DNA from: Gemmatimonadota bacterium
GTDB lineage: Bacteria; Gemmatimonadota; Gemmatimonadetes; Gemmatimonadales; Gemmatimonadaceae
DNA: 64,000 bases
NCBI GenBank assembly: GCA_014192065.1
Contig: BJHH01000002.1
Span: 124,001-188,000, forward strand
Reading direction: 5' to 3'
In this document: positions 26,093-28,690 of the stretch, one piece after another
Position numbering within the stretch: the stretch's first letter is position 1
Layout of the letters: every line of letters begins with the position of its first letter
Position numbers and translations under genes: made by a program
Notes under the pieces: generated by a model
Seen by the model: the letters and a program-made list of their open reading frames with translations, nothing else
What the model was told of the DNA's origin: nothing
Databases searched by the model: none

Positions 26093-28264
26093 TCAGCTCG
26101 GTTTGCGATGCCCGAGGATCGAGGTGTCGTACTCAACTTCCTTTTCGAGCGACGTCACGCGGTCCTGCAACTGCTTGGCGCTGACCTGTAGTTCAGCCAG
26201 TCGAGAGGCGACTTCTGGGGACATTGGCTCCGCATCGACCGGCGTCGTGGCGGCCTCGGCAGCCTCAGCAGACGGCCTGAGCGTGCGCCAGAGCGCGAAC
26301 AGCAAGAGGCCGATCAGCACCAGCTGCGCGATCAGTGTCTCGACGGTCGGATAGAGACCGAGTACCTCGACGTGCGGGAAACCCGGAAGGAAGGTGCGCG
26401 TCATCGCGCCGCCTTCCTGCAGTTCCTTGATTCCCTTGCCGGCAAAGACCAGCGCCATCCAGTAGAGCAAACCGCTCGTCACGGCGAAGAATGGCCGGAG
26501 CGGAATCTTGACGCCGAAACGGTAAAACAGCGAGAACACCACGGCGAGCGTGGCGCCACCGGCACCGACGCCGGCGACAACGGGCATCAAGGTGCCCGAG
26601 CTCTTGGTGATCAGCGCCTGAAAGAACAGCGCGGTCTCAGCCCCTTCGCGGAAGACCGCGAGGAATGCCACGAACGCCAGGGTGAAACTGCCGCCATTCG
26701 AGAGGGCAACCGTCACCTTGTCTCGGATAAAATGCTGCCAGCGTGCCGACTCCACCTTGGAAAGCAGCCAGTAGCTCACCGAGAACAACACCACGACCGC
26801 CACGAGAAGGGTGACGCCCTCGACGATCTCTCGGCTGGCCGGCACAGCGGACAAAACGGTCCTGAGCAGCAACGCGAGCACGAGACTCGCTCCGAGCCCG
26901 GCCACCGAACCGATCCAGACGTCGCGCACCCGTTTCTTGTGCCCGGTCTTGATCAGAAATGCCACGATGGCGCCAATGACGAGAATCGCCTCAAACCCTT
27001 CGCGCAAGATGATGAGGAACGATTCGAGAAAGCTGCCCCACGGTGTCGACGACGGCGCGGCAAGTTCGAGCACGGTGGGCATTGCCTGCTCGATGGCCAG
27101 TCGGTTGGCGTCGGCTGCGGCAAGGTCACCGGCCTTGAGCGCGCCGTGAAATTCGGCGAACTGCCGTTCGAGTTGCGCCACAAGCCCAGGATCGCGCATG
27201 CGAACGTTCGTTTCGAGCGGTTCGAACGCGATATACGCGTCGAACGCGAGGTCGGCCGCATCGGTCTGGCGCCCGGTGCGCGCCGCCAGCACGGCATCAT
27301 CGAGCATGCGGAGTACGGTGCGCGCTGCGGTGCGAGGATCGCTCGATCCATCGGCCTGAGCCGCGGCGGACGCCGGCATGACCACGGCCATGCCGCGCAA
27401 CGCGGCGACAAGCGCGTCGGCATCGACTTCGGTCACCGGTACCGAAGCCAGCATACCGGTTGCCGGATCGCCTGCACGGATCATCCCGGCGAGTTGGGCG
27501 TCACTGCGTTCCGTCTGCCACGCGAAAGTTCGCGCGGGCACATCGTTGCCGCAGTCAGCGCAGAGCTTCTTCAGCAGGGAGGCGCCGCGCGCACGGGCGG
27601 CATCAGTGGCGCGCAGACTGTTCACATACGAAACAACATCCCAACGCTCGTCAGGCGTGAGCTGCGCCGACCAGCCAACCATCGCCGTTCCCTGGATACC
27701 CACCGACACGATTCGATAGGTCAGCGCCGGCGTGACCTCATGCATGATCGAGCGCTGGCCGATCGCCGGTGGAGGCGGCGTACCCGCCGGTGCGCCGACG
27801 GGCGCGGCACTCCCGCTACCCGATGTGCCGTGGCACGACGCGCACATCCGCTCGTAGAGCGAACGGCCCTGCACGAGATCGATCGAGCGGGTCGGCATAT
27901 CGAGCGCCCCCTCGACACCGAGCAGGTTCGAAAAGGTCCGGTGGAACCCGCTAAGCACCGCTGGCGAAACTCGGCGCGATGCCGCCACCGCGAGCGAGTC
28001 TATGACCACGCGCACGGCAGCCGCGTTCGGGGTCTTTAGCCGAACCGCTACGTCGCGCGCTTCCTTGAGGAACCCAGTCGCTTCGTCGAGTTCCACCGAA
28101 GAGACCAGTCGGCCAGACGAATCAACACCCTTTGCGTATTCCTCGACAGCAACCCCGACAATCGCGGACAGTCGCTTGCCAACCGGCTCCTGCGCACCGA
28201 TATCTCGTGCGCCGAATACAGCTAAAAGTGCTGCTACAGTAGCGAGTTGTCTGAACAAGTTCAT
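26093..28264 (-). CDS. FTR1-family iron permease with N-terminal cytochrome c domain
   Basis: A 723-residue protein with three parts. Residues 1-24 are a signal peptide. Residues about 125-225 are a c-type cytochrome with haem site CASCH (141-145) and a candidate axial Met195. A second CxxC, CADCG at 235-239, lacks the His and probably does not hold haem in the usual way. From about 410 the protein is an FTR1 iron transporter with seven membrane segments and both iron motifs, REGFE (421-425) and REGAE (539-543). A short coiled-coil tail ends it. Known FTR1 partners are ferroxidases; here electron transfer may be built in through the haem. The gene stands alone, with a 19-base palindrome directly at its promoter. 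Confidence 0.9.
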   Translation of the reverse strand: MNLFRQLATVAALLAVFGARDIGAQEPVGKRLSAIVGVAVEEYAKGVDSSGRLVSSVELDEATGFLKEARDVAVRLKTPNAAAVRVVIDSLAVAASRRVSPAVLSGFHRTFSNLLGVEGALDMPTRSIDLVQGRSLYERMCASCHGTSGSGSAAPVGAPAGTPPPPAIGQRSIMHEVTPALTYRIVSVGIQGTAMVGWSAQLTPDERWDVVSYVNSLRATDAARARGASLLKKLCADCGNDVPARTFAWQTERSDAQLAGMIRAGDPATGMLASVPVTEVDADALVAALRGMAVVMPASAAAQADGSSDPRTAARTVLRMLDDAVLAARTGRQTDAADLAFDAYIAFEPLETNVRMRDPGLVAQLERQFAEFHGALKAGDLAAADANRLAIEQAMPTVLELAAPSSTPWGSFLESFLIILREGFEAILVIGAIVAFLIKTGHKKRVRDVWIGSVAGLGASLVLALLLRTVLSAVPASREIVEGVTLLVAVVVLFSVSYWLLSKVESARWQHFIRDKVTVALSNGGSFTLAFVAFLAVFREGAETALFFQALITKSSGTLMPVVAGVGAGGATLAVVFSLFYRFGVKIPLRPFFAVTSGLLYWMALVFAGKGIKELQEGGAMTRTFLPGFPHVEVLGLYPTVETLIAQLVLIGLLLFALWRTLRPSAEAAEAATTPVDAEPMSPEVASRLAELQVSAKQLQDRVTSLEKEVEYDTSILGHRKPS

Positions 28265-28266
28265 AT

Positions 28267-28285
28267 CCCGAGTATAATACTCGGG
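28267..28285 (-). promoter_or_regulatory. Palindromic operator over the FTR1 -10 element
   Basis: CCCGAGTATAATACTCGGG is a perfect inverted repeat with 9-base arms around one central base. Read on the minus strand it contains TATACT, which ends 6 bases before the FTR1 ATG at 28264, so the operator would cover the -10 box and the start site of a leaderless mRNA. An iron- or metal-responsive repressor (DtxR/IdeR, MntR or Fur type) is the natural candidate, but the sequence is not a standard box of any of these that I know. Confidence 0.65.
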
Positions 28286-28300
28286 TATGATCTTACCGCG

Positions 28301-28690
28301 CTAGTCTCCGCCGCGGTCGAGCACAACGACCGCGCCAGCGGTCGTATCTGTATGTGACAGGCTGAGATGCGCGCGCCCTACCCCAAGTTCACGGGCCCGG
28401 AGCTGGGCCCGGCCGTGGAGTTCCAACCTCGGCGCACCGCCAGACTGTGCGATCACTTCAACCTCGCGCCAACCGATCCGCCGAGCCTCGTCCGACCCAG
28501 AGAGCGCCTTGAATGCCGCTTCCTTCGCGGCGATGCGCGCCGCCAGGTGCATGGCCGGGCGGGCACGGCTGGTGGCATACGCGACTTCATCGGCTGTGAA
28601 CAGCCGATCGAGTGCCCGTTGGCCCTTGCCGTCGATCAACCGCTGCACGCGAGCGATGTCGACGAGATCGATGCCTACGCCAACGATCAT
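28301..28690 (-). CDS. acpS: Holo-[acyl-carrier-protein] synthase
   Basis: A 129-residue enzyme that transfers 4'-phosphopantetheine from CoA to ACP. GVGIDLVDIARV holds the metal Asp, and RIAAKEAAFKAL the Glu and Lys of the second motif. HLSLSHTDTTAGAVVVL is the C-terminal motif. The length is normal. The ATG overlaps the stop of the carboxypeptidase gene (ATGA), so it is the last gene of the DMT-HAD-M14 operon, an odd neighbourhood for a housekeeping enzyme. Confidence 0.94.
   Translation of the reverse strand: MIVGVGIDLVDIARVQRLIDGKGQRALDRLFTADEVAYATSRARPAMHLAARIAAKEAAFKALSGSDEARRIGWREVEVIAQSGGAPRLELHGRAQLRARELGVGRAHLSLSHTDTTAGAVVVLDRGGD

Follow-up and report, generated by a model that had tools for sequence, protein, structure and literature searches.

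A palindrome at the start codon of an FTR1 iron permease gene in Gemmatimonadaceae resembles an IscR type 1 operator and is a probable target of an Rrf2-family protein

In a genome of the Gemmatimonadaceae, which are common soil and freshwater bacteria, a perfect palindrome adjoins the start codon of an iron permease gene and overlies the sole plausible -10 element in front of it. The question raised by this locus is what kind of site the palindrome is, and which regulator, if any, would read it there. We analysed the window (the whole 64-kb stretch of DNA containing the locus), the 2.45-Mb assembly from which it comes, and FTR1-cytochrome orthologues taken from the order and from named Gemmatimonadota assemblies (the latter 80 loci). 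A literature search found no published work on iron regulation in Gemmatimonadaceae, and a search with the bare palindrome sequence returned only unrelated papers.

The palindrome and the FTR1 promoter

The palindrome, CCCGAGTATAATACTCGGG, has two 9-base arms flanking one central base, as the preliminary description had reported; the span given there, 28262-28285, also takes in the start codon, the palindrome itself being at 28267-28285. The features of the region are as follows.

28267..28285, no strand: 19-base palindrome with the core CCGA-N9-TCGG, proposed Rrf2/IscR-type operator; the second exact core of the genome precedes sufB
28264..28288, minus strand: 25-base IscR type 1-like box, ATACCCGAGTATTATACTCGGGATA, 20/25 against ATASYYGACTRWWWYAGTCRRSTAT
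28271..28279, minus strand: overlapping -10-like hexamers TATTAT (28279-28274) and TATACT (28276-28271) at the box centre, without a good -35
26093..28264, minus strand: FTR1-cytochrome c iron permease gene, 723 aa, with domains PF03239 and PF13442, the presumed target
28301..28690, minus strand: acpS (holo-ACP synthase-like, PF01648), the upstream neighbour of FTR1 on the same strand, 36 bases from it

Read on the minus strand, TATACT and the ATG (28264-28262) are separated by the 6 bases CGGGAT, exactly the spacing noted before, and the domain content bears out the earlier naming of the target as an iron permease. Covering the -10-like hexamers and adjoining the ATG, the palindrome does appear to be the operator-like site over a promoter that had been proposed. 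Alignment placed TAnnTT at the same position in the relatives. A generic sigma-70 search before FTR1 yielded no complete promoter, because a good -35 was missing. The spacing between hexamer and ATG makes a leaderless FTR1 mRNA plausible, and since the gap to acpS is only 36 bases, co-transcription of acpS and FTR1 is possible. No second copy of the 19-mer with up to 3 mismatches was found in the window, nor was any found in 100 shuffles. It was also observed that, of the haem motifs in the FTR1-cytochrome protein (26093-28264, minus strand), the second is broken at about residues 235-240, CADCGN against CAxCHG in relatives, leaving one CxxCH.

Class of the operator and its occurrence

IscR type 1 operators share a 25-base box, a YYGA-N9-TCRR core, A/T-rich ends, overlap with a promoter and a position before Fe-S assembly genes; a site of this type is further defined by being bound by cluster-loaded IscR only. 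The core is exact at the FTR1 site, which is the sole position in the window with at least 18/25 matches to the E. coli consensus ATASYYGACTRWWWYAGTCRRSTAT (PMC3899308). Against that consensus the FTR1 site scored 20/25, the sufB site 19/25 and the family consensus AATCCCGATAGATTCACTCGGCAAT 19/25, while sites A and B of the P. aeruginosa isc promoter, both footprinted for IscR (PMC6599224), scored 17 and 20, so that the FTR1 site equals site B. The box departs from IscR type 1 in its inner arms, which read GAGT/ACTC instead of GACT/AGTC, and in standing also on an FTR1 iron permease gene, directly at the ATG. The other consensus sequences compared (Fur, DtxR, SufR, NsrR and RisR) fitted the FTR1 site poorly: 11/19 for the Fur box GATAATGATAATCATTATC, 6/19 for the DtxR/IdeR box TTAGGTTAGGCTAACCTAA, 3/8 for the SufR operator CAAC-N6-GTTG, and 5/10 for the RisR box TkGAC-N7-GTCCw, of which the spacing alone is common. 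The misfit to the Fur and DtxR/IdeR boxes had been noticed in the preliminary description, from which it was concluded that the site might define a new operator class. Given the IscR type 1 match and the poor fit of the others, we regard the palindrome, judged by its sequence, as an IscR type 1-like operator, which is a known kind. The metal sensor proposed with it stands as far as the link to metal genes goes; from the fit to the IscR type 1/Rrf2 class, the sensor would probably be an Fe-S-cluster protein and not one of Fur or DtxR type.

Several Rrf2 systems offer comparison. The IscR of R. sphaeroides, an Rrf2-family repressor of iron-uptake and Fe-S genes, likewise acts through a 19-base palindrome at -35/-10, the Iron-Rhodo-box, but has one cysteine where the protein considered below has three (PMC4618611). 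Rhizobium RirA, acting at the IRO box, is an Rrf2 Fe-S repressor of iron-uptake and suf genes (PMC5863699), whose core letters differ from those found here. M. xanthus RisR represses at a suf promoter palindrome, GAC-N7-GTC, with the same half-site spacing as our box, and no iron permease was seen among the targets described for it (PMC9973013). SufR is also an Fe-S repressor of suf, and many relatives have a sufR-sufB operon, but the genome studied has no sufR and its site lacks the CAAC-N6-GTTG box. The Iron-Rhodo-box was reportedly defined by Rodionov in 2006.

The core CCGAGTANNNTACTCGG occurs without mismatch at two places in the 2.45-Mb assembly, the FTR1 site and a twin at G000:C5:157697-157713. 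The twin adjoins the ATG of sufB, an Fe-S cluster assembly gene, and thus has the promoter position of an IscR type 1 site. The next-best sites were three with 2 mismatches, all within long reading frames, and a control pattern gave an equal number; a third site, resembling the core but having a 5-base spacer, was rejected, as it also lies within a long reading frame.

Among 73 non-redundant FTR1 promoters of Gemmatimonadaceae, CCGA-N9-TCGG was present at 7/8 or better in 52 (3.9% in shuffled upstream regions) and at 8/8 in 31 (0.8% of windows within the same genes), and in 43 promoters of this set the core ended 1-4 bases from the ATG. The boxes of relatives, for example AATCCCGATACATTTTCTCGGCAATG, TATCCTGATAGATTCACTCGGCAATG and ATTCCCGAGTATTTTACTCGCAATATG, extend into the start codon. 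Variant sites, for example TATCCCGACAAGTTTACTTAGGATT, precede sufB genes that have no sufR upstream, scoring 2.9 to 26 bits, with a few of them weak; at the promoters of sufB genes lying behind sufR, no box was found. The preliminary description had held that absence of the motif before FTR1 orthologues, or scattered matches, would speak against it; neither was the outcome of the search. The exact 19-mer was rejected as the conserved unit, the strict core (2 mismatches) occurring in 51/198 genomes of the class, roughly as often as its reversed control did. As a separate observation, many Gemmatimonadota carry, immediately ahead of sufB, a SufR-like gene that itself has sites resembling AACA-(T-rich)-GTTGA upstream (L073, L074, L078-L081, L085, L088, L090, L091, L093, L094 and L099), and others, including the genome studied here, do not.

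A weight matrix built from other genomes only ranked the palindrome first in the window at 18.1 bits (second, 5.4) and gave the sufB site 19.9 bits. With the nearest relatives left out, the palindrome was still first by a smaller margin (8.9 vs 6.3), and sufB scored 10.2. R1, a sequence-only model trained without the two sites of this genome, found the FTR1 site as its sole match there at E≤2, with an E value (1.08) that taken by itself is weak; the sufB site missed E 2. Only this own-genome result is free of circularity, as R1 matches in other genomes are partly members of the training set, and its best matches there, FTR1 and sufB promoters, are so partly by construction. Two untrained R1 matches were found in G078, one before a second FTR1-family gene and one before a gene for a TonB-dependent receptor; the latter gene (835 aa, L271) has the perfect palindrome AATCCCGAGCAATTTGCTCGGGATT upstream (G078:C59:17769-17793). 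Three other R1 matches, within coding frames, were dismissed as chance-like. The metal link proposed earlier is supported, the genes concerned all being metal genes: FTR1 and sufB here, and FTR1, sufB, the TonB receptor and the second FTR1 gene in relatives.

The presumed reader and alternative explanations

The genome encodes a single IscR-like Rrf2 protein of 151 aa with three conserved cysteines (gene start near G000:C4:136387; L003, 1492-1947), the only one of its proteins above the Rrf2 family cut-off. It passed the Rrf2 superfamily model (105.7 vs 73.3) but did not reach the equivalog cut-offs of IscR (TIGR02010, 91.6 vs 207.55 bits), RirA (43.4 vs 193 bits) or NsrR, for which reason we call it IscR-like and not IscR. 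The E. coli IscR sequence used as reference agreed with PDB 4hf1. Of the residues contacting DNA in IscR, Ser40, Tyr41, Glu43, Gln44 and Arg59 (PMC11475020), four were identical in the alignment and Ser40 was replaced by Asp. Cys92, Cys98 and Cys104 all aligned with cysteines (C-x9-C-x5-C), whereas the cluster ligand His107 is replaced by Arg, so that the ligand set of E. coli IscR, three Cys and His107, is incomplete. The protein is kept throughout the family. SufR was rejected as the reader, its gene being absent from the genome and its box different. Autoregulation of rrf2 was likewise rejected: a search of its own promoter in this genome found no box, and box-like sites occur only in a few relatives, for example L122 and L127. 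Because of the motif class, the kind of genes targeted, the lack of SufR and the presence of only one Rrf2 protein, it is likely that this protein reads the box.

Taken together, because a near-identical site stands before sufB here and before iron-import genes across the family, the palindrome probably serves as operator for an IscR-like repressor of the Rrf2 family, which would sense iron by way of the supply of Fe-S clusters in the cell. By analogy with IscR, RirA and RisR (PMC6599224, PMC5863699, PMC9973013), the cluster-loaded protein would bind the box as a dimer and exclude RNA polymerase from the -10 region and the start codon of FTR1. Upon shortage of iron or clusters, the cluster would be lost and the protein would leave the box, and iron import by FTR1 and cluster building by SUF would rise together.

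An operator read by another DNA-binding protein, such as the divergent member of the Fur family or some regulator not recognised here, seems unlikely. The rrf2 gene adjoins neither FTR1 nor sufB, and the genome does have one Fur-family protein (G000:C1:426506-426856, L172), which is divergent (53 bits, where members of the same genus score about 100) and reaches none of the NCBIfam equivalog cut-offs. Such a reader is opposed by the spacing and sequence of the box, which are those of IscR type 1 with no Fur-like match (11/19), and by five genomes (G016, G033, G045, G057 and G060) that keep a boxed FTR1 with no Fur match. In addition G020, the sole genome without any Rrf2 protein, has no box match and a Fur box at FTR1, although this is a single case. 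Less probable still is conservation of the core promoter only, that is, a -10 element with fixed flanks and no regulator: the TAnnTT at the box centre and its constant distance from the ATG would suit it, but the symmetric CCGA/TCGG arms are conserved equally with the -10 T's, and the core is present at two genome places only, whereas an element common to promoters would be expected before many genes. Least of all do we favour a role as RNA hairpin in the acpS-FTR1 interval (attenuation, processing or start-codon occlusion), for although the sequence here folds well (-14.1 kcal/mol, z -3.2) with acpS 36 bases upstream, relatives keep the arm letters with inner pairs mostly broken, pairing (69.5% vs 71.8% in shuffles) and covariation do not exceed shuffles, the hairpin did not form in three relatives folded, and the box is kept where a gene other than acpS lies upstream.

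Fur boxes and a possible exchange of sensors

Returning to the Rrf2 operator, relatives that lack it at FTR1 mostly have a Fur box. A 7-1-7 Fur box was found in 19 of the 73 FTR1 promoters, often across the start codon, at 12-14 matches of 14; the FTR1 promoter studied here reached 10/14 and has no Fur box. Only 6 of the 73 had both boxes (Fisher p 2.8e-5, kinship ignored), and in one of these, L213, the box is chance-like. It was also noticed that a Fur-type box, TGAGAATnATTCTCA, lies across or near the FTR1 start codon in L041, L042, L180, L181, L183, L222, L248 and L251. The small number of promoters with both boxes, and the box-carrying genomes without a Fur match, raise the possibility, which we put at somewhat below even, that control of FTR1 in Gemmatimonadaceae has switched between Fur, sensing Fe2+, and an Rrf2 Fe-S sensor. 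If true, the main iron sensor in part of a phylum whose iron control appears unstudied would be IscR-like and have an altered cluster ligand. The promoters also form a natural series in which Fur and Rrf2 boxes seem to be interchanged at one gene, which is useful for studying how iron sensors replace each other in evolution.

The kind of operator is thus a known one, IscR type 1-like, and what appears to be new is its member at an FTR1 iron permease gene in Gemmatimonadaceae; as far as the sequences indicate, the operator and its link to metal both hold. For the Gemmatimonadaceae, the finding provides a testable candidate regulon of iron and Fe-S genes.
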